DNA of 64,000 nucleotides from Polychytrium aggregatum. Lineage: Eukaryota > Chytridiomycota > Chytridiomycetes > Polychytriales. Of this stretch, positions 13,681 to 54,842 are shown piece after piece; the first letter of the stretch is position 1; the number at the start of each line of letters is the position of its first letter. The notes below the pieces were generated by a model that was not told the DNA's origin, ran no database searches, and saw only the letters and a program-made list of their open reading frames with translations. The stretch lies in NCBI RefSeq assembly GCF_025602895.1, contig NW_026516207.1, forward strand, positions 434,001-498,000, read 5' to 3'. Both the position numbers and the translations under genes were made by a program.

Positions 13681-13914
13681 CGTGATGTGGGGTGTGGTGC
13701 ATGCATTCGACCACCTGGATACTTCTGTGGCTGCTCGATATCACGCTGTTTGGTCATGATGGGCGATGGACGGGGTGTATTCAGGACCAGAAAATAGCGA
13801 TGTATCGGACTCAAACCAGGCACGGTGCAATCGCAATCCAACAGAAATGCATATTCCGAGGCCGTGTTTGAGCCGGACAGACTCGAGTGTCGGAGGCCAT
13901 ACCACGGCAACAGA

Positions 13915-14106
13915 TCAAATCATGATCTCGCGCTTGATATTCCTGACCTCGAATGTCCGGCTGTCAAAGTAGGCCAGAACGGCCCTGGTGAACAGGTCAG
14001 CGCCCTTGTGCAAAAACTTCTTGGCCGCAATCACGGGCGTCATGCCCGAGCCCGTACCAGATGCAGCGGCACATCGAAACAAACAAACGTCCTGCTTGTT
14101 TGCCAA
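13915..14106 (-). CDS. possible terminal exon of an unrecognised gene
   Basis: A minus-strand ORF ending at 13915 carries the sequence [19 protein letters not shown] followed by [20 protein letters not shown]. About 80 percent of its codons end in G or C, like the certain genes here, so a real exon is plausible. I do not recognise a family, and no convincing upstream exon or start could be assembled. A possible acceptor lies just before GACGTTTGT at about 14100. It could also be chance. Confidence 0.25.
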
Positions 14107-14900
14107 ACCTCGGTGCCAGCCTTACCATCGGCGATCGACAGCGCCGGGGCGGGACTTGGCCGACAACGGCGTCCGCACCAGCAGCAGGCCGATGACCCCC
14201 CCCCGTTTGCGTCCCGGCCAGCCGGTGGCGGACGGGCCCAACAGGCCCCCTCGTCATGTCACTCCAGCAGGCAGCCGCTCTCATCCAGGCAGACTTCTTT
14301 GGCCTGGTCTGCCCTGGTCATTGTCGTTGACCCCGCTGGGCCTGTCTCGGCCTCTGGCCACCCAAAAGGCCCCCTCTTGCGGCCAATCGGCGCCCAGCCC
14401 GCGGCTGCGCATGCATCATCCCGTGGCTTGCGGTGCCGCGCTATCTCTTGCTTGCTGCGCGGCCGGGCGCACAGCCGCCTTGCTGCCGCTCGTCTGTGTT
14501 TCGCCAACGGCGCGTGCTCTCTCTCTCTGCTCTCTCTCTCTGCTCTCGCTGCTCTCGCTGCGCTCTCTCTGCGTCCTCTGCCCGCCCTCGCCGTCTTCTC
14601 GCCCCTCTCGCCCCTCCCGCCGCCCTCTCGCCCCGCCCCTCGGCCCTTGTCGCTGTCGTCATTTTCCCACGGAATCCGTCGTCGATTCCCACCCGTTTTT
14701 TTCTCGGCCGCCCGATCCTATAAATTGTGCCCCTCGCCCTGCCCTTCTCTTCCGCCCATCGCTCTCATCGGACCCGTTCTTTCGCCTCCCGCCCCGGTCG
14801 CCAACGCCCCTCCAGACGCCTCCTGCTCGCCCCAACCCATTGCTCTTTCCAAGGACCTTGCTTCCTCGCCTCGTCGACTTGCCCCGAGTGCTTTCGTCTC

Positions 14901-14975
14901 ATGTATAAGCACTCTTTCGAAAAGGTTTCCAACGACTACATTGCCGATCAAGTCTTCAAGAGCCACAGCCAGTAA
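14901..14975 (+). CDS. arginine attenuator peptide-like uORF of CPA1
   Basis: A 24-codon ORF (ATG at 14901, TAA at 14973-14975) ends 193 nt before the CPA1 start codon. Residues 11-19 read NDYIADQVF. In ascomycete CPA1/arg-2 genes the leader encodes a 24 to 25-residue attenuator peptide with a conserved core, for example QDYLSDHLW in Neurospora, in which Asp12 is essential. Here Asp12, Tyr13, a hydrophobic residue 14 and Asp16 fall at the same positions of a 24-residue peptide. Trp19 is replaced by Phe, and Ser15 and His17 differ. In known cases the nascent peptide stalls the ribosome at the stop codon when arginine is high and lowers CPA1 expression. Function here is inferred from position, length and motif. 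Confidence 0.8.
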
Positions 14976-15168
14976 ATCCCCACTGTCAGGCTTTTCCTTC
15001 CGCTATCTCGCGCCGCATACATATCGTCTCTCCAGTTATCGGACTCGCTCTGCAGCCCCTCCCCGTTGCTCTCTGTCCTGCGTCGATTCGCCAAGTTTCT
15101 GTGCCTCGAATCTCGTCTTGCCCCCCCTCGCTCCTTATCGCCGTATCTCCTCCAGCCCTCCTGCTCCC

Positions 15169-16681
15169 ATGCTCGCTCCAAAGTCTCTCTTCCGCCCCAT
15201 GATCCAGGCTGCTTCGCGCGGCTCTCGCTCCCTGGCAACGCTCGTTGCCGACCACCCGACTCTCAAGCCCTCGGCTGTTGCCAAGGGCATCTCGGACATT
15301 TTCCTGCCGGCCACCCTCAAGCTCCAGTCCGGCGAAACCTTCAAGGCGACCTCCTTTGGCGCCCCGCTCGTCAACTCCCCCATCTCGGGCGAGGTTGTCT
15401 TCACCACCTCGGTCGTGGGATATCCCGAATCCATGACCGACCCCTCTTATCGCGGTCAGATCCTGGTCTTTACCCAGCCTCTGGTCGGTAACTACGGCGT
15501 TCCTGCCCCGTCTCGCGACGAGTTTGGGCTCCTGAAGCACTTTGAGAGCGAGGGCATCCAGGTGAAGGGCATCATCGTCAACGACTACGCCGCAAAGTAC
15601 TCGCATTGGAATGCCATCGAGTCGCTCGGCCAGTGGTGCGCCCGCCACAACGTCCCCGCCCTCTCTGGTGTCGACACCCGCCAGGTCGTGACTCTGTTGC
15701 GCGAGCGCGGAACTACCCTTGGCCGCATCACGATCGGCGGCGACAAGGGCGATGCTGCTGCCGCTGCTGTCGTCGAATCGTTTTATGAGGATCCCAGCAA
15801 GACCAATCTCATCGCCGAGGTCTCGACCAAGACGCACACGATTTACAATTACGGTGGCGACGTCCGCATCGGTCTGATTGGTAAGTAATGCCCCTTGTCC
15901 TTGACGCTGCGGTCCGTGGCAGAAATCGTCCTGGGTTGTGCCTTGGCCCCACTTCCGCCATGGCATCGCCTCTGTCATACGTAGCCGCGCCGAGCGGCTC
16001 GCCCGCGTCGGCATTTGGCCGGTGGTTCCTTCTGCTCATGCTTGCCGTTCTATCCGCCCAGACTGCGGTGTCAAGCACAACATCATCCGCCACCTCACCA
16101 AGCGCGGCGCCCAGGTCCACGTTGTCCCGTGGGACTATGATCTCAGCAGCGACAACTTTGACGGCATCTTCATCTCCAACGGCCCTGGCAACCCCCTGCA
16201 CGCCACCAAGACCGTCGAGACCCTGCGCAAGATCATGTCTGCGGAGAACAACAAGGCCCCGACCCCCGTCTTTGGCATCTGCATGGGCAACCAGATCATG
16301 GGCATGGCTGCGGGCTTCCCCATCTACAAGCTGCCCTATGGCAACCGTGGCCACAACCAGCCTGCCCTCAACCTGGTCACTGGCAAGTGTGTCATCACTT
16401 CGCAGAACCACGGCTATGCTCTGCAGGACTCGGCCCCGGTCCAGGACTGGCTGCCCTACTTCCGCAATGCCAACGACGGCTCGAACGAAGGCATCCGCCA
16501 CAGCTCCCTGCCCTACAGTGCTGTGCAGTTCCATCCCGAGGCCATGGGCGGACCCCAAGATACCGAGTATCTCTTCCAGGACTTTATCGACCAGGTCCGC
16601 CACTACAAGGCCCGCCGCACGGGCACTATCGCTGCCGCTGCGGATGCTCCTGCCCGCGCCAGCGCCAGCGTCAGCATCTAA
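15169..16681 (+). CDS. CPA1: carbamoyl-phosphate synthase, arginine-specific, small (glutaminase) subunit
   Basis: Two exons, 15169-15880 and 16062-16681, encode 443 residues. The enzyme hydrolyses glutamine and passes ammonia to the large subunit for carbamoyl phosphate in arginine synthesis. The N-terminus ([20 protein letters not shown]) is basic and lacks acids, a likely mitochondrial presequence. The CPSase small-chain domain follows ([34 protein letters not shown]). The class I glutaminase domain is in exon 2, with nucleophile Cys311 in FGICMGNQ and the FHPEA stretch with the catalytic His and Glu. The usual motif is GICLGHQ, so Asn replaces His next to Gln. The single intron falls before the glutaminase domain. 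The ATG was chosen as the first one giving a presequence; the open frame runs far upstream through a CT-rich leader. An attenuator-like uORF precedes it. Confidence 0.95.
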
Positions 16682-17097
16682 TCGACCTGGCTGCTTCTCT
16701 GTGCTGTGGCCAAATATGCTGCATCCAATATATATATCGATCTAATTCAGAAAGCACACCGATAGATTTTCCCATTGATCGAGCGCAGGACTGCAGGACT
16801 GGCCAAAGTCATAATCCATATCTGGGCACAATCCGTCCAGAATCGTTGCTTGTTGCTGCCTGCTTGTTGCTGCCTGCTTGTTGCCTGTTGATGCGCTGCA
16901 TCAGATCCATCTTGGATGATTGTTGGATCCAAAGACATTGATCGTATCAGACACAGGGGCCACCAAGGGTTAACGAGCAGTGTCGTGTCAGCAAAGCCTG
17001 CTCGTCTGCCCCCGAACAAACAACAGGGTCCTTTTGATCCCTCTCCTCCCCGTCTGGCCCGTCTCTGTTCGATCGCCCGATCGCCGGGTTGGTCGGC
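16682..17097. other. convergent intergenic region after CPA1
   Basis: About 416 nt between the CPA1 stop and the stop of the minus-strand gene at 17098. It contains a TATATATATCGAT tract and three GCTTGTTGCTGCCT copies in tandem (about 16850-16885). No gene seen. Confidence 0.5.
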
Positions 17098-27399: not shown

Positions 27400-30300
27400 C
27401 TATTGGCTACGGGCCTTGGGCTGCTGATCGGCATCACCGGTTTCGAGAACGGTATTGGGGCGTGCCGGTGGCGGCTTTGGCGTTCGCAGCCAGCCCATGA
27501 TCGACCACGGATTCTCGATCGCAGTCTCAAGGGTCTTTTCGAGTGCCGAGGCCATCTTCTCCAGCGTCGTCGACGACTCGCCGTTTTGCAGCGGGGCATC
27601 GACGTCGATGTCAGTCTTGATGGCGAGTGGCGGCTTGCCAGCGGGGTTCTCATTGGTTGACGCTGTTGCTTCCACTGGGTCCGGTTCAACGGCCCGCAGC
27701 TCAACCGAGATTTCTGTCGCTCTGGCCTCGTCCAAGGGAGGCTGTTCGACTGCTGTTGCATTGCTCGACTGCTTGGACACCAGAGTGGACGTGCGAACAA
27801 TCACGGGGTGCCTTCCGGCCGCTGGATTTGGCTTCTGGGCAGGCTCGGGCTGCTCCAAGACTGGTTCCAGAGTGGGCTTCGCTTCCGCTGCGGTCTCGAG
27901 CTTGGTCTGGCTCAATCGAGTCTCCGGCAGAGACAGCGGAGCTGGTCCCGCACTCGACGCTGCGCTCATGGTTGCAGCAGATGTGTCGGAGGAGAAGCTA
28001 GACTTGACCAAAGCCGACTGTCGGCGCTTTGGAATGCCGAACGGCGACTGGAGATCAGGAAGGCTGTCTTTGGCTTTTGGAGGTGAGGCGACCGCCGGCT
28101 TGGACATGAGCGGCTTGGCCATTGGCCCTCCAAAGTCATCCAGGCTGAGTCGCGGCCGCAGATAGGGCGGCACGGCTGCTTGCTCATTGGACTTTTGTTC
28201 CGTGGCAGGCTTCTGATAGCCAAAGACATTCCCTTGGAAGCTTGGTGGCGGCTTGCTAGCCAGCGGCAGCTCCGTATTCAGCACGGAAGCGACCTGCGGC
28301 TCGTTGAACATGACGTTGTTGCTGGAGTTGACGATTTTCTCAACAGGCGTGCCTGGGATCTCGGCTATTCGCTGGGCGGCGACTCGTTTGTCTTGGAGGA
28401 TCGGGCCACTCAGCGGCGTCGACGATGAGCTCTCACCAAGGTCTGGCTTGTCCAAAAAGTCCTCCAGAGCAGAAAGGATATTGGGATCGTTCCAGTCGCC
28501 CGTGGCGTCGTTCAGGTCGCTCAACAGATGCGATTCAAAGTGCGTGCTGTTCCGCTTCTTGAGAACCCTGTCCGATCCGGCATCGTTTGAGCCGGCTGCG
28601 ACCGCATCGTCCTCCTCTCGGTCCTCGGTCAAGGGTGCCTCCCAGAGTGTCGAGTCTGCCGTCATGCTCATCTGTCCAATCGAGCTCTTGCGGCGCAGTG
28701 CCTGGGGGTCAACTCGCCCGCCTCCCACTGCGTTGAGAGAAGGGCGCCGGGTGCGGGTGTCGAGGTTCTCGTTCGACTGGACCTTTTGCAGCACTTTGTG
28801 GTTCAGTTGCTTGCTCTGTCGGCGCTCGGTCACGGTTTCGGGAGTGGCAGCACTCGGCGGGTTGTTGGTCGGTGTTAGCTGGAACGGAACACTGTCTCGA
28901 GTCTTGGTCGGCGGCGCGCCATCAGTGGCAGCAACTGCAGGATCCTTTTTGTTGAGGAAGTCAGTTTGAATCTGGAGCTGCACTCGAGACGACGACCGAC
29001 GCATGCTGGACTTGGCTGGTGGCTGTGGAGCGGACGGTGCCTGAGTGGACTGACCGATTTCTTCTTTGAAGGCCACCGTAGGACCAGGACCAGGGACAGG
29101 AGCAACCGGGGCAGCGGCAGTGGAGACCGGGGCAGCTGCTTGGGGCGGCATCGACGGAATGGGCGCCAGCTTAGGTGGTGCCGTGCGGTCGTCATCAGTC
29201 ACCGGCTCGTTGCCAGCAGCCGGAGGCGCGAACTGTTCGCCGAGCTGGCCCATCCAGATGCTGAGAGGACGCAGCCAGCCGTTCTGCCTCTTGGGCGGCG
29301 GCGGGGCTTTCAGGATCGGAACTTTGTGCTGGTTCGGTGCCTTGGCCGATGGTCTTGGCTGGTTGGTGGCCTGTGTGGACAGGCCAGGCTGCGCAGATAC
29401 CTCTGATGACGGCTGGGCAGGTGCTGGTGCTGGTGCTGGTGGGGCGGGTGCTGGCTGAGCGGGTTTGCTGGATCCGTGTGCGACGACAGACGACGATGCC
29501 TGAGGAGGAACTTGGCTCTTGGAGGTGCCGAGGCTGTGATTGCTCCCGTTGACGGCTTCGAGCGAGACCCGGCGTTTGCCGCCCGATAGGCCGGCACGCC
29601 AGGCCTCGAGCTTGGGGTTGATGGGTTTGTTGACGATGACGCCGTAGTCCGGCTCAAACACTTGGACAGCTCCAGCCGGCTGCGCCCCGAGCATCCGCTC
29701 CTTGGCTGCAGACGAAGCCAGGGTCGACATGCTGCCGTCGTAGAGGATCTCGTTGCGCCACCAAGGATCGTCGCGGTCGTCCTCGACATCCGAGTCCCAG
29801 TCCGAGTCCAAATCCCAAGGACGTGTGCGGGGGCGAGGCGGCATAAACGCTCCAAGGCCGTCGTCGTCTTCCTGCAGAGGTGCCCATGGATGATCGAGCA
29901 GGTATCGCACGCTCGCCAGATCCATTTCGACCTGTAGCCACTGCTGGTCTGTTCGGCGGACAATCGAGTCGAGTGCGTGCTGGTGCCCCTCCTTGTAGAT
30001 GATCAGCTCGGCCTTGTAGCTCACCAGTAGTTCTTTGGCGGCGTTGAGCTCCTCCTCGACCTCCTGCATCCTCGCCAGCTTGTCGTTGGCTTGTGCAAGT
30101 TGCGACTTGGCTCGAGTCAACTCTGTCTTGAGCTCCGCGATTTCAGACCGCGCTCCCGTCAGCTCCTCCTTCATCCGCAGCTTGAGTCGGTTCTGCTTGG
30201 CAAGCAAGCCCTGGGCTTTGGCAATCTGGTCCCGTAGCGACTGTACAGCCTCGACGTCGGCGTTCAGAAGGGTGTTGACTCCGACTGAGCGGGTCTTGAT

Positions 30301-33300
30301 GATCGAAGGGCCGATCGCTCGCGTCTCGGTGATCTCGTGCATCTCTGTCATGGAGGGAATCGTGGTCTTGGTCGGCTCCTCGTTACGGACGCCACCCAGG
30401 ACGCCCAAGAGACCCCTCCGGAGGCCAAACCGAGGGGTATCGGCGATCGAGAGTGAGCGGTCGCGCCCAGGTGCAGGAGGCGGCGATCGCGACCGCTCGG
30501 GCTCTGACGACGGAGCCACGACCTTGGGCTCGATAACAGACATGGACCGGCTGTGCAAGCGCGACGACTTGCCTGCCTTTGGCGAGGCTGAGAAATTAAA
30601 CAATCAGAACACGCCTTGTTCCAAACGATGCAAGGCAGCCGAGACAGCAGCTCGAGGTGGGGGGGAAAGGTCGCGGTGATACTTACCCAGGTCCCAAATC
30701 TTAACACACCCGTCGCCACTTCCGCTGAAGAGCCTGCCATCGTGGCCACATATCGACGCAACCGAACCAAAGTGCGCCTCGACGGAGCGCAGCGGCCGCG
30801 CGTTCTTGATATCCCACTCGACGATGTTCTTGTCGTCACCGGCAGAGTAGAGCTTGGGACCAGCGCAGCAGATGGACCGGACGCCGTGCGAACCGTGTCC
30901 CGTTACCGTTCGCAGGCACTGGTAGGTCGATATGTCCCAGGCCTTGATGGTGCCGTCGCGACTGCTGCTGTAGAGAACGTCATTGCCGAGACACAGCGAA
31001 AAGACCCAGTCCGAGTGTTCCTCGAGGACCTTGAGACAGCGGCCGGTGTCGATTTCCCACACACGAATGGTATGGTCGTTGCTGCCAGAGTACAGCAGGC
31101 CGTTTGTGGATGTGCACAGTGCTAATACCAGTCGCTTGTGTCCAGCGAGTGTCCACTTTCGGCGGCCCGTGCGGGGATCCCATTCGTTGACGGTGCGATC
31201 GCCGCCACCGGTATAGAGCCGTCCATCGTGCGAAATATGTAGCGCGGTGACATAGCCTTCATGGCCACCGATTGTCCGGGAACAGACCCCAGTCGACACA
31301 TTCCAGACCTTGACGGTGCTATCCTCGCTCCCTGACATAAGCCGGGACATGTGGAATCCGATACATGTGACGGCCTTGGTGTGGCCCGTGAAGGTGCGCA
31401 CGAGGGTCTTGGTTTCCAGGTCCCACTCGCTGATCGCACCGTCTCGTCCGCCAGCAAACAAGCTGTACTCGCCAACGCAGACACACGTTATTGGGCGGCG
31501 AGGCTGTGGCGTCAGCGTATCGAGACAGACCAACTCAGGGAGGGTCTTGGTCATCTTCGATGGAGTCGGTGCGACACCTAGGGTAGGCTGTCCAGCAGTA
31601 GCGCCCACAGCCAGCGAGGAGACGGCGATGGGCTGGGATGGAGGAGCCTGTTCCTTCTCGGTCGCGACCTCGGAGACGACGACCTCGCTCGCTTGCGCGA
31701 TTGACCGAAGCGGCTCAAAGAAGCTGACCCTTCGGTTTCGTGGGGGATCGGTATTGCTCTGGACAGCTGGCGGAGGCTTGGGTACAAATATGGGCTGTGT
31801 CGACGGGGCTTGCGATTTAACCACCTCCAAAGGGTCGTCTGCAGGTACGGTGGACTCGGGTCTTGTCGGCTTCGACACCGCCTGCTTCGAAGTAAGGGTC
31901 GTGTCAGAAGAGTCGGTGCTCCCTGTTTGCATCGAGGCCTGCTGCTTGGGCTTTTCGGGGGGCTGAACAGCTGCCGCAGATGGCTGCACTGTGCCAAGAG
32001 CAGGGGCAGGGGGAAGGGCAGTGGGTTCAGAAGTGGTGTCAAAGAGGCTTGTTAGCCGACCTAGGAACGACACTCGTTTGTTGAGACGAGGCGCAGGTTC
32101 CAGCGGAGGTGCCTTGGCGTTATCGCCCCAGGGTTCGGCGGCCGAGACCCGGGACGCTTCGGGTTTCTCATCGGGCTCTGCTCTGAGCCGAGACTCTGGC
32201 AGGACTTGGAGCCGCTCCGAGGGAGCCTTAGCGCTCGACAAGGTTGTCGGGCCGGCAGTATCGGATTCGTAGTGGGTCGGAGCCGAGACGGTCTTGGCGG
32301 CAACCAAGCTACTCGAGCGCGAAACGCGCCAGAGCTTACTGTCATCGTCTTTCTTGGCTGCAGACTGCTGGGCGTCGTGTGTCACGGACAGAGTTTCAAC
32401 AGCGCTGGATGCAGTTGCCGCGGAGTGGACAGAGTCACTGGGGTCAACGGCGCCAGCATCAGACGGCGTGGCGGTGGAGGCAGCAGAGGCGGGTGCAGAG
32501 TCGGAGATAGGTTTGGATGAAAGAATCCGAGGATCCGCGCCAACCGGCGCGGGGGTGGGTGGTGAGGTCTCGTTGATCGTGCCCAGCTGAGATGAGGGTG
32601 GTTTTGAAACAAGCGTCTTTCTCCGCGCTTTGATTGAAACTGAAAATGGAGATACATAAGCATCCGAGTTTTCCGGCTTCGAGCGCGTAGATCTGGGTGT
32701 GGACGTAGTAGTTTTATCACCTGGGGTAGACATATTGCCCTTCCGGGTGGCTACAGCGCTGTGCTGGGGCTGCTGCTGGGACTGGGGCTTGCTGTCGATC
32801 GTATCCTCTTTCGGCTCTGTTTCCAGCGTCGATCCGTTGGCTCCATCGTCTCCACCGACCCGATCGACTGACCTTGGAAGCTCCGTAGGGTATGAAACGG
32901 TATCGGGGCTGATATGTGGAAGCGGGGGAGGAAGATAGGGCGTGCCAGTCGGATCCACGATCGGCTCTTCGCTCAGCTCGATCACCGCTGGGAGCTCGAC
33001 CGAGGCAATCATATTGACAAAGGACGTCAGGATACCGTCCACACCGGAATCTACCGACGACAGCGGTTGCTTGGGTAAGGAGTTTGCGGCTGTTGATGGG
33101 AGGAGTCCATCACCGGTGATCATGCTGACGACCGAGCCGATAAAGTCGTCGACACTTTCGCTGACATAGTCTCGCTCCGTCGGTGCCAGTGCCGGTGCTG
33201 GTGCCGGGTCCAGGCTCTTTGTGAGAGCTGCTTCAAGTACAGGGCTCTGTGATATCCACGCGGGCGAGCGAAGGGGGGCTTCCTCGGCAGCCTTGGAGAG

Positions 33301-36300
33301 CTCGATATCATTCCATAGCTCTTCTTCGACATATTCTTCGGCTGGTTTGTCAAAGAGATGGGTTAGCTGATGTTTCCTCAGACGACAGCAAGACCAGCCG
33401 TTGTGTATACGCCTTGCATCAACCGTACGCACCAACAATCGCAATCTTGTCATCGAATCGAGCCGAGGGGAGGTCGAAATCGTTGAACGACATCTCATAG
33501 TCCTGGGTGACAGAGGGGTTCAGGGAGGAACGGCGATCATTGTCGACAGAGCAGGACTCGAGCATTTGCGGCTCGGCGCTGTTGGGCGAGAACAGCAGAG
33601 TCTTGTGTTCGGCGAGAGATTCTGCCTCGCTGCGTTGCTCGGTAGGATCCGAGTCACTGGTTGCGGTGCTCTCTGTGAGCTCCTTGTTCGCTTCGACACG
33701 GCGATCGTATCCGATGTGGTCCAGTGAGCCGTCTGCGGCTGCATCAGCAGTCCCGACAAAAGTAGACTCGAACTCGATCTTTGGCGAGCCGTGGACATAA
33801 TCAGAAGCTAGCGCGGCGAGACGCGAGTCTGTTCGCTCAATCGCGTCAATGACTGAGGGTTCAATATCGGCGTAAATTTCTCCTTCGGCGTTATCGTTCG
33901 CGGTATATATGGCGGCTTCGTCAACATAAGAAGAAAAATCGACGTTGGCATCGGCATCGGCATCGGCATCGGCATCGGCATCGGCATCGGCATCGGCATC
34001 GGCATCGGCATCGGCATCGGCATCGGCATCGGCATCGGCATCGGCATCGGCATCGGCATCAACTTCGATCCTGTCGATGATGGTAGTGTCGACAATGGTG
34101 CCGACGGTATCTGCATCGCTAATATTGGTGTTGGCGCGGGCCATGTCGATCCCGCCCGGCGTCGAGGCTGGGACATCTATCGCAGTCGTGGATATCAGAA
34201 CAGCATCCTCCTCCGAATCGACGGTCAAGTCAGAGGCGGCAGAGTGAGCTGTCGCAACGACAAGCGTTTCTGAGAGGGTCGTGTCCGAGGCTTCAGCAAT
34301 CGTCGATGAGGTCACATCGTCCTTGGCCAACGGTTCGATATACGGGTCGAAGTTGGAGTCTGCCAGCTCAATCACATCGACATGGCCAAAGGATTCTGTC
34401 GAGAATGAAAGTGACAGCGCCTCGGAATAGTCGGTAGATTCAACAAGGACGAGGCTGTCACTTTCGTCGGTAGCTTGGTTGTTGATATCCGTCAGGTTAG
34501 TTTGGACAAAGGCTACAGAACCAATATTAGCAACGGTTTGGTCCGAGTCCAAAGCCAAGGTAGAGTCTTCGAGGCCGTTGAGCGCCGGAGGCATCGGTGT
34601 TTCTTCATCAGCGAAAGTTCCGACAGATCCATCGAGGTATATGCTTTGGGCAGCTTGCGCGATCACATCGGTCACACCGAAGCCGGCAGTTTCGATTGAA
34701 CCAGCGGTATCACCGACGCGATCCAGCTCAGACACCTCTACTGTCTCAGCGGCGTCAACGGGTGCTGTGACATGGGTATTCTCAACAGTATCGACAGTCT
34801 CAACAGTCTCGACAACTTCGACAACTTCGACAGTCTCGACAGTCTCAACAGCTTCGACAGTTTCAACAGTCTCAACAGCTTCGACAGCTTCGACAGTCTC
34901 GACAGCTTCAATAGTCTCGACAGTGTCAATCGCTTGGATTGCCGCTTCCGCCATAATTTCACCCCCGACTTCTTGTACAGCGCCTGTCGCTGGTGAGGCT
35001 ATAAACGGCCCTGTGATTTCGTCCTGTAGAAGCGACACTTCGGAGCCACTCCCTTGATCAGCGTCGGTACGCTCGTACAGAGGGCTCGGTGGCAAGGGAG
35101 GAAGGTCGCAAAGGTAATCTGTGCTTCCCCTATCCTTGCCCGCATCCGCCTCAATAGCGGTTGCTCCGGGAACATAGAGCTCATCCAGAGTCATGGCCGT
35201 CTCAGAGCAGACATACGTTGTCTGTTCAGATTCGACGGTCGGTGGGGCATGTGTACCGCTCTCGAGGATCAGTTCAGTCATTGGCTCAGCAGAAAGCAGC
35301 GCGCCTTCTTCCATCGTACGAAGGGTCATAACCGAGGCCGAGAAGTCAAGCACAAGGTGGCCTGTCGATACGGGCGGTGGCAAAGGCAAAGCATCGTCAG
35401 CTTCCAGTTTAGACGACTTGAGATCGTCAATCGTGAGGGCCGAGTCGCTCTGGTGTGGAGCATAGTGAGGATCGTCCTCGAATTGGGCCAGGAGCTTGAC
35501 AGTGGCGGGATCGCTGATACCCAGACCAGCCTTTTCTTCGTGGAGCGACGCTGACAAGACAAGAGCTGAATTCTGCGGCGCCTCAGCTGTCCCGGTTGTG
35601 TCCAACACAGGTGCCGAAACCAAGGCGAGGGACATGGGGTGACCATCTGTGCGATCGGCCGAATACTGGGACGAGCTGGCATCAAGCTCCTCGAAGGAAA
35701 GGGCAGTACGGATGGCTGATGGCGGCGACAATGGGTTGAGCTTCAGGGTGTCGAACACAATCGGCGGGGTCAGCAGCGATGGCGAAACAAAGTCAGGTCG
35801 ACTGTCTCGGCGTAGGGCATGACGCTCAACGGCATGTAGCGCGGCGATGGATTTGCCGTCGAGATGAGCCAGCTCCAGTGTCGAAGCAGAGGACTCGGAG
35901 ACATATTCAAAGAAGGACACGGTGCTGGGAATCGGTTGGATGGGATAGAGCTCAAGCGACGAAGCTGTTCTGGATCGTGGCGAGGGCGGTAGCGGCGGCA
36001 AGAGCGTCATGTCGTAGGGATAGAAGGGAAGACTGTAGTCCGTGGGTATACTCGAGAGCCAGACAGAGTCACGGAGCTTGAGCTGGACACGGCCAGGCGA
36101 GAAGAGGCCTGGCTCTGTGTGGCGCAGAGCAAGCGCAGGGTCCGAGTGCGGGGGCGTCAGTGTGGTTCGTTCATACGGTCGGTGATCCGTGGTGTCAGGG
36201 CCACGACCAGACCGACGGCTGTGACAATCGCAGAGCGTGCGTTGCTTACCATGGCTCTCTAGAATCGTATCCTCAGAGGAGCACGAATCAATCTCAGTGT

Positions 36301-38323
36301 CTGGAAGCGACGAGAGTGGTTCTGTGAAGCAAACAGGATCCAGCAGAATATCAGTACCGCGGCGCCGCCAGCGGGTTGATCCCGAATGCTGCGCCTCGGA
36401 GTGAGTGCCCGCGGTGCATACCTGTGATGTCTGTGGTCGGAGAAAGCAGGTATGCAGCATGATCGTGGGTATGCTTTTGAGACGAAAACTGGTAAACGGG
36501 CGGCAGACTGAGACGGCGTTCAAGCAGGTCCTCGGGCGTGATTCTGTGGGACATGACCATGATGCTCTTGGAGCGCTGGGCTCGTGACTGCTTTCGTGAG
36601 GTGTCAATCTCGAGGGCATGAACCAGCTCTTCGCGCAGCGGGCTGAAAGAGGCGCGCCGAGAAGGAGGCGCACTGAGGCGTCGGGTGAAGACGACTTCGT
36701 CCTTGAGATGCTCCTCTCGGAAGGACGACCGACGGGAAATAGCGGACTTTACTGTGGTGGGGGAATGGAGCTGGCTCGAAAGGGGCTCGCCCTCGCGCAT
36801 GGATGTCGTGTCGTGCAAGAACGAAAACGGACCGCCTATGGAGGACCAGCCCGAATGAGGAGTGTCGTGCTCTCTAGCCGTGGGTAGAACGGGGCTACCG
36901 AGCTGGAGATGTGGCAGCGGGCTTGAGGCTGAGGAAGCGCTTGGCGGAAGCGAAACATGTGTGGCGCCAGAGGGCCAATCGGTGACGATGCGTAAGATGT
37001 TGGGATCTGCGGAGTACAGGTAGGGGTTGGCGGGTGGTCAGCGGAGACATGTCACGATCCGAGGTGCCAAAACCCGATGGGCCATCATCTGCAGGCATGC
37101 CATGGCCGCAAATAGACAGAGTTGGCGATCGCAAGCGAGCAGATGAGAGATAGCCACTCAATGGACTCGGGCTATACAGGGATGTGCTGGGCAAACTCAC
37201 CAAGCACGTCGATCCCCTTCGACTCGGATTCGGGAAGCGAAAAGGTTCTCGGAGGCGGAGACGACGTGGGCAGGTCGTCAATATCGATACCTTGCTCGTC
37301 AATATCGATACCCGCCTCGTCGATGTCGATACCCGCCTCGTCGATGGTGATGCTCTCGGACGATTTGGTGTTCTCCACAAGGATAGTCTCTTGAGAGACG
37401 ACAGCGGTGGTTGAAGACGGGGGTGGCGCGGGTACAGTGTCTTCTTTGGCATCGGTGCCGTCGTTCTCTATCGAATCGGCATTTGAAGCGGTGCCTTCGA
37501 CGGGAGCTCCAATATCACTTCCGACATCGACTTTGTTTCGGATATCGATGCCGCTGTCTTCTGCATTGGCGCTGGCACCGAAATAGCTCTCGTACACAGT
37601 CGTGCCGACCGCCTCGGTCGGCTCAGCAAGCGATGCAGACGAGAGAAACAGTGCCTCCTTGGCGGCTGGCTCAACGGAGTTGGAGGCGGAGACGGAGACG
37701 GAGACGGAGGGGGTCTCGGCAGGGTCTGCGACCGCTTGGTGGTCGGCAAGGGAGACAGCTCCGACAGCCCCGAGGTTGTGCTCAGCCTCGGGGAGGGCTG
37801 CCGGCGGCTGCCAGGGCTGCAAGGATAACGAACCGGGAAGTGAAGCGGGCGAGAGAGGAGGTTGGGCCGGAATGCGTTCGTCCAGAACGATACCCCGGAA
37901 CGACTCTGGACTCGACTGGTCGCTGTCGGTGATAGAACCTGTGACAGAGCCTGTCCCAGAGCCGGAGAACTCGTCGGGCAGCTGCGACGGCGCAGCGTCT
38001 GGCGATGAGCCCGCTGGCACTGCTGGGTGGAGGAGCAGCCACGGGTCGCAGGACAGCGACTCGGTGGCAGTTGGCGGGCCTGTATCGGATGCAAGCGACA
38101 GCGGGACGGGCTCGACGGCAGCCAATACAGGAGATTCGGGGAGTGGCGGAAGCAGGGCGACGAATTTGAAATGGTCGCCATCGACCAGGGGCTCGATGTC
38201 TTTGAGGAGCGGCTCTGCCAGCGGCCCTGGCTGATCATCAGCCGGCGACAGCAGGGGAGCGCCATGAAATGCCAGAGCGTCCGGCTCGCCCGCAGGGGCG
38301 GGGACGGGAGACTTGGAATCCAT
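27400..38323 (-). CDS. giant WD40 and coiled-coil scaffold protein (~3,479 aa)
   Basis: Five exons join in phase on the minus strand: 37201-38323, 36422-37006, 33433-36321, 30687-33341 and 27400-30587. Residues 1 to about 2130 are low-complexity, acidic and Ser/Pro/Thr rich, with GIDIDEA repeats, a VETVEAVE repeat block and a run of about 19 Asp-Ala pairs. Seven WD40 repeats follow at about 2130-2417 (for example TRTFTGHTKAVTCIGFHMSR region, GGRDGAISEWDL, GSEDSTVKVWNV, GSNDHTIRVWEI, GDDKNIVEWDI, GSGDGCVKIWDL). A coiled coil lies at about 2530-2650 (LKTELTRAKSQLAQANDKLA), then another disordered tail. I do not recognise an orthologue. The propeller suggests protein binding and the coiled coil oligomerisation. 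Donors are GTGAGT, GTATGC, GTGCGT and GTAAGT. Confidence 0.78.
33946..34060 (+). repeat. (GGCATC)n coding microsatellite
   Basis: About 19 uninterrupted copies of a hexanucleotide encode the Asp-Ala run of the giant protein on the minus strand. Near-perfect identity suggests recent expansion and length polymorphism. Confidence 0.9.
34770..34935 (+). repeat. VETVEAVE-coding minisatellite
   Basis: Repeats of TCGACAGTCTC, TCAACAGCT and related 9 to 18-nt units encode alternating ETVE and EAVE on the minus strand, within exon 3 of the giant gene. Confidence 0.8.
37262..37348 (+). repeat. GIDIDEA-coding repeat
   Basis: Three 24-nt units containing TCGTCGATATCGATACC-type sequence encode AGIDIDE repeats near the end of exon 1 of the giant gene. 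Confidence 0.75.
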
Positions 38324-49905: not shown

Positions 49906-52900
49906 ATGAGCTCGTTTTACAAGTCATCCCAAGACCCGCTGCGAGCTTCCACACCAGGTAATATCGCGGACCCGTCCGATCGCAGCCACCGTCAGCTGCT
50001 TTTGTTCGGCCCCCCGGCTGCTGGGGCATGTCCTTGCTTCTCGATCCGGCCTCGCAGTCGTCTGGACAAAATCCCGACCGACGCACTCGACGCACAGAGG
50101 CTTGGGAACAATCCGGGCCGTGGCCAACAATCTGCCTCAGAGTCAGTCTGCCTTGGACCTGCACTGCCTTGGCCAGTGTGCTTCGTGGACGATTTTCGCT
50201 TGAGGAGGGCTGTTGGCGACCCCGCTGTTGGCGACCCAGCTGTTGGCGACCCCGCTGTTGGCGACCCCGCTGCGTTCGAGGATATCCTCTCCTGGCTGGC
50301 ACGACACGACAGCAACCCGCCACCCGATTTGCCTATGATCTTCCAGCACCCACCCTCCTGCCTTCTAGCGCTCGCTCCTGCTTTCCAGCACTCCTCCGTC
50401 TCCAGTGTCCTCATGCTGATCTTCATGCCCTCTCTTCTTGTCATCTCCCGCTCCGTTTGCCCCGCCTCTCGCTCCATTTCCCCCACCCGCAGCCATGGAG
50501 TCCCCTGTCGCTCCATCTGCTTCTTTGCCTAGGCGCAACACTGCCCGGCAAGGCGGTGCCATGCAGAGAAGCAACACTCTGTCCCGGAAAAAGTCCCTCG
50601 TTCGTCCCGAACGGGCTCCTCAAAATCGCACTCTCCATCCGGCCCTCAACAGCGACGGCACCATCCCCCGTCGCAGCAAGTCCGTTGTCAGCGAGCGCCA
50701 CTCCTCGCTCGGGCGCTCCGACACCATCTTCCGTCGCTCGCTGGGTCGCAAGCGGCGCGATGGCCCCGAACGTACCCCATGGGTCATTGCCAGCTACTTT
50801 CTGACCTGCTTCATCCCCAACAGACTCTTGTTTGTCTGTGGCAAGCGCGACGTCTACATCCAGCAGGCCTTCCGCGAGAAGCTTGCCCTCTGTGTCGTCA
50901 TCGCTCTCTTGATGTTTGCCGTTGGCTTCCTCACCTTTGGCTTCCAGTTTGTGCTCTGTCCGCCCAACGCCATCCCCACCTATCCCTATCTCGGCCCCTT
51001 CCCGAGCACCGTCGCCATTTCCGGCACCCCAACCAAGCTCTTCACCATCCGCGGCTCCATTTACTACATTAATCCCTCCAAGACCTCCGATCCCTTCCTC
51101 ACCAACGTTGTCAACCTCGACGGCGGCACCGACCTGACCTTTGCCATTCCCAGTAGCAACCCCGCCTGCGCCGGCTCCAGCAACGGCTTCTCGGATAGCA
51201 GCGATGCCCGTCTCAACAGTTGCTACGTCCAAAAAGGCTCCAACAAAACAAAAATAAGCTGCCTGGTGATCCAGCCTCCCAAGAACCAGCTCTCGGACTA
51301 CTTTGTTTACTATGGCGACACGCTCATGGCCTGGAACGATATCAATCAGAACTATGTTGTCTACAATGGGTAAGCCTGCGTCGCACCCTCCTGTCCTGTG
51401 GCGGCCATGGGCGTGGCCATGAAACGCGCCTGTGCCGTCTTCCTGGCTTTGCGGCCGTGCCCCTCCACCACCCTCGTTTGCCCTCGAGCTTTTCTGTCCC
51501 TGGTGTTTGCTGACCCCATGTGTCTTCTCTTCAGTGCCATTCTCGACATCACGCACTACTCCGACGTTCAGAACATCTACGGTAAGATTGTTGCAGCTCT
51601 CGATCGTGGCCCAGCGATCCGGTGATCTGGCTGCCGCTCCTGGTGGGCGCACGCTCAGCTCCCTCGCAACCAGCACCGTCCCAATCAGCATTATCAGCGT
51701 GTGGCTCATCGTCATTGCCCTCTCCACCCCCCCCTTCCTCTGAACTCTGCCCCAGGCTCTGCCATGACCAACGTCATCCAGAGCCACACTGGTAACAACG
51801 CCATCGCCCACGACATGACCGACACGATCGCTCGAAGCAACACTCTCCGCAGCCAAGCCGTCTGTCTTGCCGACACCTTCACCATTGCCAAGCTGAACGG
51901 GCTTTCGGTTGGCTGTGCCATCTCCTTTGTCGTCACCAACATCTCGCTGATTATCATTGCCGGCGTCGTCATCCTCCGCTTCATCTTGGCCATCTTCTTC
52001 TCGTACGCCATCGGCTGGCGCTTGGGCGACCGGGGCGATAAGACCACCAACCGCGCCGCCGAGCATCTGGCTCGCCGTGTGACCGAGCGAAGAACCCTGG
52101 CCCGCACTCGCACGGCCACCCGCACCAACATCCCTCTGGACTCTGTGGTGTCGCGCCAGCCAGCTGGCTCGTCCATCAACAGCCGTCGCGTCAATGGCAC
52201 CGAGAGCGTTGACGGCCAGAGCAGCTCCGCCTCGGATGAAACCCGCAGCCACCAGTGGGGCTGGAGCGCCAACTTTGGTTTCATGGACAACGCCGACGAA
52301 AACTCTGACCTGGCCAACGATCCCTTCCTCGACGAAAGCTTGGTGCAGTCCCTGATCCTGGTCACCTGCTACAGCGAAGGCTACCAGTCCCTGCGCAACA
52401 CCCTCGACTCGGTGGCCAAGACCTACTATCCCTCGACCCACAAATGTCTGTTTGTGATTGCCGATGGCATCGTCACCGGCCACGGCGAGCCAAAGTCCAC
52501 TCCCGACATGCTGATTGACATGATGGACGTTGACCCTCGCTTCAAGGGCGACGATCCCAAGCACGGCGGCGAGCCCCAGGCATTCAGCTACGTTGCCATC
52601 GCTGACGGCAACAAGCGCAAGAACTTTGCCCGCGTCTATGCCGGCTGGTACAAGTGGAGCCGAACCGAGGTCCTTGATGCCGAGAAGGAGAAGGAGAGGG
52701 AGAAGGAGCGCCACAAGAGAGGCTTCCGATCGAGCACTCTGCCCAACGACACGGCCAGCGCTTCCGAGGCATCCGAGTCGGACATAATGCCCGCCTTGAA
52801 GACCATCAAGGACCGCAAGGAGGGTCGCGTCCCCATGATCCTGGTTGTCAAGTGCGGCAACGACGAAGAGCGCAACGACCCGCATGTCAAGAAACCCGGC

Positions 52901-53316
52901 AACCGCGGCAAACGTGACACCCAAGTGCTGCTCATGAACTTCCTTACCAAGGTCATGTTTGACGATCGCATGACCGAGCTCGAGTTTGATATCTTCTTCA
53001 AGCTCTGGACCATCACCGGCGTGCACCCGGAGCGCTACGAGGGCCTGCTCATGATCGACGCCGACACGGAGATCTATCCCGACTCGCTGACGCACCTGGT
53101 TGCTGTCATGCACAAGGATCCCATGATCATGGGTCTCTGCGGCGAGACCAAGGTCAAGAACAAATGGGGCAGCTGGGTGACGATGATTCAAGTCTTTGAG
53201 TACTTTGTCTCGCACCACCTCAGCAAGGCCTTTGAGAGTGTCTTTGGCGGTGTGACCTGTCTGCCTGGCTGGTAAGTGGCCCCCTCCACCTTATGGGTCG
53301 TGTCTCAGCCGCGAGC

Positions 53317-53361
<45 letters not shown>

Positions 53362-54842
53362 CCCTGTCCTGCCCTGCCCTGCCCTGCGCTGTGAGTGTGT
53401 GTGTGATGGCGTCCCTGCCGCTCCAAAGGTTTCTGGCTTTGATGTCTGCTGCGGCCGCCGTTGCTGACGCTGCAAACCACTCGGCTCTGCCCAGCTTCTG
53501 TATGTACCGCATCAAGGCCCCCAAGGGCGACAACGGCCACTATGTCCCTGTCCTTGCCAACCCCGATGTCGTTGAAGAGTACGCCGAAAACATTGTCGAT
53601 ACCCTCCACAAGAAGAATCTTCTCCTGCTGGGTGAGGATCGGTTCTTGACCACGATGATGCTTCGTGCCTTCCCGCACCGCAAGATGATGTTCGTGCCCA
53701 ATGCCATTTGCAAGACCGTGGTCCCCGACGAGTTCAAGATTCTGCTCTCGCAGCGTCGTCGCTGGATCAACTCCACCATCCACAACCTGTTGGAGCTGGT
53801 CCTGGTTCGCGATCTCTGCGGCATCTTTTGCTTCAGCATGCAGGTACGACGAGTGCCCTTGCCAAGTTCTGCCCCATCCCCTTCTCGCGTTGGTCCTCAT
53901 CTATGGATGCGTCCATCCTGTCGCTAACGCATGCCTTTGCTTGTTCTCGTACGTCTCTAGTTTGTTGTCTTCATGGAGCTTGTCGGAACCGTCGTGCTCC
54001 CAGCCGCCATCAGCTTCACGCTCTACATCGTCTGCCTCGCGATCTACCTGGCGGTCACCTCCCCAGGCTCCCCCAACATGCCGACCCAACCCCTCCTCCT
54101 GCTGTTGGCCATTCTCGGCCTTCCCGCCGTCCTGATTGTCCTGACCGCCAAGCGCTGGATCTACGTCTTCTGGATGTTGGTGTACCTGTTGGCCCTGCCC
54201 ATCTGGAACTTTGTCCTGCCCCTCTATGCCTTCTGGCACTTTGACGACTTTTCGTGGGGCGAGACCCGCAAGGTCAGCGGCGAAGCCACCCAGGAGGATC
54301 ACTCCAAGGCCGATGGCGTCTTTGATGGCACCGGCATCAACATGAAGCGATGGATGGAATGGGTCGAGGAGCGCCGTGTCCAAGCCGAGCAAGCCGAGCA
54401 GGAGCGTCTGACGGCCTATCTCGCCAACAGCAACCGCATGGTGCCCGTGCAGGTGATGGCCCCCGGCGCGGCCCCGCCCCCCGGTAGCGTCCCAGTCTTC
54501 ATCCACGGCGGCCCTCTGCGCTCCAACGGCTCGATCCATAGCGGCAAGTCGGTCAGCGCCGCGCGCCACGGACACTCGGATTCGGACTTTATCCCGACCG
54601 TCAAGTTGAGCGGATACATCCCCACCTTTGAAGAGCAGCAGCGTGCGGGCTCGGTACACTCGACCTCGGGCACCTATCCTGGCGCTGCCACGCCTGTTCC
54701 CGGTGCTCTCCCTTACGACACGCCGTTCCCGCCCCGGCCCCAGGTCAACGCCGCGCACTTGGTTGCCCCGACGCGGACGACAAGTTCTGTCCAGTCTGGC
54801 TCCCAGAACAGCGGTTCCGCGACCCCCCACTCGGATATCTAA
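49906..54842 (+). CDS. CHS3: class IV chitin synthase
   Basis: Six exons, 49906-49957, 50493-51369, 51535-51581, 51756-53271, 53495-53843 and 53961-54842, encode about 1,240 residues. The enzyme polymerises UDP-GlcNAc into chitin at the plasma membrane. Layout: a basic disordered N-terminus, two membrane segments around [18 protein letters not shown] and [19 protein letters not shown], an extracellular region, then another membrane segment ([20 protein letters not shown]). The family 2 glycosyltransferase domain holds DAD (53057-53065), [19 protein letters not shown] (about 53632-53643) and QRRRW (53751-53765). Three to four C-terminal membrane helices and a Ser/Pro tail follow. I placed the start at 49906 because a 17-codon first exon splices in phase to the exon containing ATG 50495. 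If that intron is not used, translation would begin at 50495. Confidence 0.93.
50208..50272 (+). repeat. 15-nt tandem repeat in chitin synthase intron 1
   Basis: Four copies of GCTGTTGGCGACCCC inside the 535-nt first intron. Confidence 0.9.
53317..53361 (+). repeat. (GGCT)n microsatellite in chitin synthase intron 4
   Basis: About eleven uninterrupted GGCT units followed by CCTGCCCTGCCCTG pentamers. Confidence 0.9.

Follow-up and report, generated by a model that had tools for sequence, protein, structure and literature searches.

The leader of the CPA1 gene carries a single uORF that, judged from its sequence, very probably encodes an arginine attenuator peptide (AAP), homologous to the known ones though divergent in sequence. 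The uORF occupies 14901..14975 on the plus strand of the window, by which we mean the whole 64,000-nucleotide stretch of DNA analyzed here, and comprises 24 sense codons and a TAA stop codon. It was first noticed in a sequence-only reading, and its coordinates, length and sequence agreed when they were read again from the DNA. AAPs serve as a model of how a nascent peptide can detect a small molecule within the eukaryotic ribosome. An AAP in a flagellated fungus, if true, would move this device back towards the root of the fungi, suggesting that intraribosomal arginine sensing dates far back in this kingdom.

The CPA1 gene and its leader

The downstream gene had been named as CPA1, and this is borne out by a CPSase small-chain domain in its protein (Pfam 4e-43) and by a two-exon model on the plus strand. 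Exon 1 (15169..15880) encodes an apparent mitochondrial presequence and the CPSase small-chain domain, and exon 2 (16062..16681, stop codon included) encodes the glutamine amidotransferase half with GICMGNQ. The 181-nt intron between them (15881..16061, plus strand, GTAAGT...CAG) was placed from the reading frame and homology, and the joined exons encode a protein of 443 residues. The PDB sequences that match it best belong to mitochondrial CPSases of the ammonia-dependent type and to free-standing small chains of CPSase. Read by eye, the N-terminus appears to resemble a mitochondrial targeting sequence; the free-standing small subunit and this apparent presequence suggest that the enzyme is arginine-specific.

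A TATA box (TATAAA, 14719..14724, plus strand) is the only match to TATA[AT]A in 13901-15168 and is the likely core promoter of CPA1, with transcription expected to start about 30 bases downstream of it. Within 14741-15250, ATGs were found only at 14901, 15169 and 15199. The last of these lies inside CPA1, and the uORF ATG is the sole ATG from the TATA box (14719) to the CPA1 start (15169). The uORF stop codon is separated from the CPA1 ATG by a C/T-rich spacer of 193 nt without any ATG (14976..15168, plus strand). Because the frame of the uORF differs from that of CPA1, the uORF is not an N-terminal extension of CPA1. The uORF start has the context TCTC-ATG-T, with C at -3 and T at +4, which is a weak context under general eukaryotic rules. 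Since the CPA1 start likewise has C at -3, the two starts do not contrast in context.

Resemblance to arginine attenuator peptides

The uORF peptide was compared with the AAPs of N. crassa arg-2 (24 residues) and S. cerevisiae CPA1 (25 residues). The uORF peptide carries D12, Y13, I14, A15, D16, Q17 and F19, followed by a basic residue at position 20, and its core reads D-Y-I-A-D-Q-V-F-K. It shares with both reference AAPs the pattern D-Y-[IL]-x-D-x-[ILV]-[WF]-[KR], and the first core Asp lies 12 residues before the stop in the uORF peptide and in the two references. The N. crassa peptide precedes the same gene, has the same number of codons and shares S10, D12, Y13, D16 and the 12-residue distance between D12 and the stop, with conservative pairs at positions 14 (Ile/Leu), 18 (Val/Leu) and 20 (Lys/Arg). 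However, the uORF peptide differs from it by Asn11 for Gln, Ala15 for Ser, Gln17 for His and Phe19 for Trp, and residues 1-9 are unlike. The earlier remark that the peptide otherwise does not resemble known ones is thus fair for residues 1-9, and the residues that it had listed as kept (D12, Y13, I14 and D16) or different (A15, Q17 and F19) agree with ours. The yeast peptide also precedes the same gene and shares D-Y-I-x-D and the Lys of the core as well as the distance to the stop, whereas the uORF peptide is one codon shorter and has the core Ser, His and Trp replaced. The position of D13 in the yeast sequence used agrees with the D13N mutant reported in PMC7969011.

The core identity is modest, with 4/12 residues identical and 9/12 positive against N. 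crassa, and 5/12 identical and 8/12 positive against yeast. Where these references have Ser-Asp-His-[Leu/Ile]-Trp at residues 15-19, the uORF peptide keeps Asp16 and a branched residue at 18 and replaces Ser by Ala, His by Gln and Trp by Phe. Three core residues therefore depart at positions where both references agree, which could mean that a once-functional AAP lost its arginine sensing through the changes Trp19 to Phe and His17 to Gln and is today no more than an inhibitory uORF. We consider this unlikely, because D12, Y13, D16 and the basic residue 20 are kept, residues 14 and 18 are conservative and residue 19 is still aromatic. Furthermore, the distance to the stop is maintained, and the uORF is intact in both copies in the assembly.

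The likeness was quantified with a core score, defined as the mean BLOSUM62 score of codons 9-20 (14925..14960, plus strand) against both reference AAPs, anchored at the stop. The uORF scored 31, and the two references scored 57 against each other. As a control, 264 kb of the same contig, namely 20 stretches of 10 kb and the window, were searched on both strands for ATG-started ORFs no longer than 60 aa. With nested starts counted separately and the uORF itself excluded, this gave 5924 ORFs, of which the 3105 of 16-50 aa were scored. No control ORF reached 31, either when anchored (0/3105, best 20) or with free placement (0/3105, best 22), and the motif DYxxD of the uORF peptide was present in 0/3105. 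Shuffles of the peptide reached this score once in 200,000 when anchored and 11 times in 200,000 with free placement, and random 12-mers did so once in 1,000,000. The comparison is also gene-specific, as it concerns a single uORF in front of the only gene for which an AAP would be expected. The proposal of an AAP-like position, length and core is thus supported by the 24 codons, the distance from D12 to the stop and the lack of equally high scores among the 3105 control ORFs. A search of PDB sequences with the uORF peptide gave no match up to an E value of 10, and a search of its own genome for further AAP-like sites returned only the two haplotig copies.

The composition of the uORF also differs from that of its surroundings. 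The uORF has 33% A and 51% purine, compared with 10% A and 27% purine in the rest of the leader (14751-14900 and 14976-15168), and the three most purine-rich 75-nt windows among those listed start at 14901-14903. When the remaining leader was simulated with a first-order model, only 3/100,000 simulations were as purine-rich as the uORF. Its synonymous codon choice is weakly gene-like, with a log-odds value of 2.13; gene-like recodings had a mean of 2.33 and leader-like recodings a mean of -2.20, with 844/20,000 of the latter as high as the uORF. An unconstrained segment of this leader would not be expected to be purine-rich and gene-like in this way.

These results bear on whether an ordinary uORF merely lowers CPA1 translation through initiation alone and resembles an AAP by chance. 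The presence of some uORF in such a leader is not unusual, since 14,824 of 20,000 random leaders of the same composition contained some closed uORF, and the identity of 4-5/12 with the known AAPs is not high in itself. However, none of the 20,000 simulated leaders contained an ORF with the AAP score (best 18.5), and the rarity of that score among genome ORFs, shuffles and 12-mers, its occurrence before the expected gene and the unexpected composition make a chance resemblance improbable.

A different origin for a working peptide would be convergence, in which an AAP-like peptide arose independently in this lineage and acts on arginine through the same tunnel mechanism. There is precedent outside the fungi in the uORF of Toxoplasma gondii ApiAT1, which is described as arginine-responsive, dependent on a critical Asp and AAP-like, and the yeast AAP is reported to be partly functional in Toxoplasma (PMC8370653). 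In contrast to the uORF studied here, that uORF is 99 bp long and lies before an arginine transporter gene in Apicomplexa, and its authors speak of possible convergence (PMC8370653). In our case, the gene and the distance from Asp to the stop are those of the two reference AAPs from Dikarya, and this common gene and common geometry favor descent over convergence as the simpler account. A conserved AAP uORF is also reported for S. cerevisiae, N. crassa and Cryptococcus (PMC7049704). The uORF of the Cryptococcus CPA1 orthologues also precedes this gene, there in a fungus outside the ascomycetes, and is described as AAP-encoding, ribosome-occupied and linked to mRNA decay (PMC7049704), although Cryptococcus is a basidiomycete, unlike the zoosporic host, and is likened here by that description and not by peptide sequence. 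An independent origin therefore seems improbable to us, to much the same degree as a chance resemblance.

Several features of the leader could instead suggest that the stretch belongs to a riboswitch or other RNA structure, or that it forms an upstream exon coding for a different protein. The uORF frame is open upstream and spans 83 aa from stop to stop, and two non-consensus GTA sites touch the uORF (GTATAA at 14903 and GTAAAT at 14972). An 8-bp perfect inverted repeat (GAGTGCTT...AAGCACTC) at 14886-14914 places the uORF ATG in a hairpin loop. However, C/T-rich DNA is open by composition, and neither a consensus splice donor (GT[ACG]NG[CT]) nor a branch point (CTRAY) was found in 14741-15168, so nothing points positively to splicing of the uORF. 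The hairpin could tune initiation at the uORF, but it is probably a chance feature because such arms are frequent in the window (31 counted). The leader also folds more poorly than shuffled versions of itself (z +1.77), 99 of 100 of which do at least as well, and it gave no Rfam match up to an E value of 1, which leaves the RNA-structure explanation unsupported. The reading as an RNA structure or known RNA was dropped on these grounds, and together the RNA and exon alternatives have very little probability left.

Proposed mechanism and its implications

We favor a homologous AAP as the product of the uORF, because the Asp-Tyr pair, the second Asp, the aromatic residue, the basic residue and the distance to the stop are all kept, which makes the AAP mechanism the most likely one. 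In known systems, the AAP is reported to stall the ribosome at its own stop codon in the presence of arginine, and the D13N change in the yeast AAP abolishes the arginine response (PMC7969011). The stall at high arginine is described as lowering translation of the small CPSase subunit and exposing the mRNA to nonsense-mediated decay (PMC7969011, PMC11550727, PMC7049704). The ribosome occupancy of the Cryptococcus uORFs is consistent with this mechanism, and the C. deneoformans CPA1 orthologue is reported to be up 5-fold in upf1-delta (PMC7049704).

By analogy, ribosomes scanning the CPA1 leader would initiate at the weak uORF start with moderate efficiency, and the nascent D-Y-I-A-D-Q-V-F-K core would sit in the exit tunnel near the peptidyl transferase center. 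High arginine would then hold the ribosome at the TAA stop codon (14973..14975, plus strand), which is read directly from the DNA and which the AAP literature cited above leads us to predict as the arginine-dependent stall site. The stalled ribosome would block scanning to CPA1 and expose the mRNA to nonsense-mediated decay, whereas at low arginine the uORF would be bypassed or terminated fast, and CPA1 would be made. We infer translation of the uORF, its dependence on arginine, its action in the tunnel and the decay of the mRNA from the likeness to known AAPs.

If the peptide works, it shows which residues of an AAP can vary, and as a naturally occurring form in which Phe, Ala and Gln stand in for Trp, Ser and His, it would make the residue needs for arginine sensing directly testable in existing Neurospora and yeast extracts. 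We think it rather probable that the ancestor shared by zoosporic and terrestrial fungi already had an AAP before CPA1, and that the essential part of the peptide is just D-Y-[I/L]-x-D together with one aromatic and one basic residue, set at a constant distance from the stop, Trp19, Ser15 and His17 being replaceable. Among the papers listed in the literature searches, covered for the most part as titles and opening lines of abstracts and not including the survey of Hood et al. 2007, we found no report of an AAP in a chytrid or other non-Dikarya fungus. That survey (Hood, Spevak and Sachs) is reportedly the key one for AAPs across species, and Spevak et al. 2010 is said to be a mutational study of the AAP; the priority of an AAP in a zoosporic fungus is therefore uncertain.

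Host, gene copies and other features of the window

The gene content of the genome indicates that the host is a zoosporic, non-Dikarya fungus, in line with the early-diverging fungus that had been thought probable from the window; this assignment comes from gene content rather than from a tree. The assembly comprises 64.7 Mb in 418 contigs, and many features occur on two near-identical contigs. The genome encodes the flagellar radial spoke protein 3 (RSP3), which had no match in any of 14 prokaryote control genomes. The Chitin_synth_2 model gave 71 matches in the genome, the best at 3.9e-229; it was above the cut-off in 4/14 controls too, so its weak matches mean little. For LYS2, five neighboring pieces on C57 jointly cover positions 101-1379 of the 1390 in the alpha-aminoadipate reductase model. 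None of the pieces alone reaches the cut-off of 1030.1 bits, and the five sum to about 1581; in the 14 controls, 12 had matches below the cut-off and none above it. It is RSP3, the chitin synthases and the LYS2 pieces together that point to a zoosporic fungus.

A genome search for the CPSase small-chain domain found C364 (CPA1), C4 (a near-identical copy) and C24. The C4 copy is identical over the uORF and differs from the window (14501-16800) at 4 of 2301 aligned columns, namely by one indel in the leader (near window position 15147), one indel in the CPA1 reading frame and two substitutions. With so few differences, it is uninformative on conservation or selection. A frame shift splits the CPA1 gene of this copy in two, and the copy is a haplotig carrying sequencing errors or else a second allele that is broken. 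The C24 match, the only other distinct one, lies in a long frame and was taken as a URA2/CAD-type gene, whose leader served as a control. Eight ATGs were read upstream of its likely start, and four of them open ORFs of 16-59 aa, with AAP scores of -19.5, -6.0, -20.5 and -23.0. None of these four scored ORFs is AAP-like, two shorter and two longer ORFs falling outside the scoring. Searches for relatives of the CPA1 protein found none by tblastn among 6 stretches that matched a pattern in viral_contigs, and none among 25 pattern matches in genome_contigs.

Other genes were observed elsewhere in the window. On the minus strand, 27400-36619 holds three long ORFs in a row, of 1047, 964 and 1066 residues; the middle one (964 residues) has many WD40 repeats, and its neighbors have no Pfam match above the cut-off. 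A chitin synthase gene at 52331-54368 was matched in several pieces and has a near-identical copy on C392. At 377-2335, the window encodes a protein of 652 residues in which an F-box is joined to a Sec10-like exocyst helical bundle.
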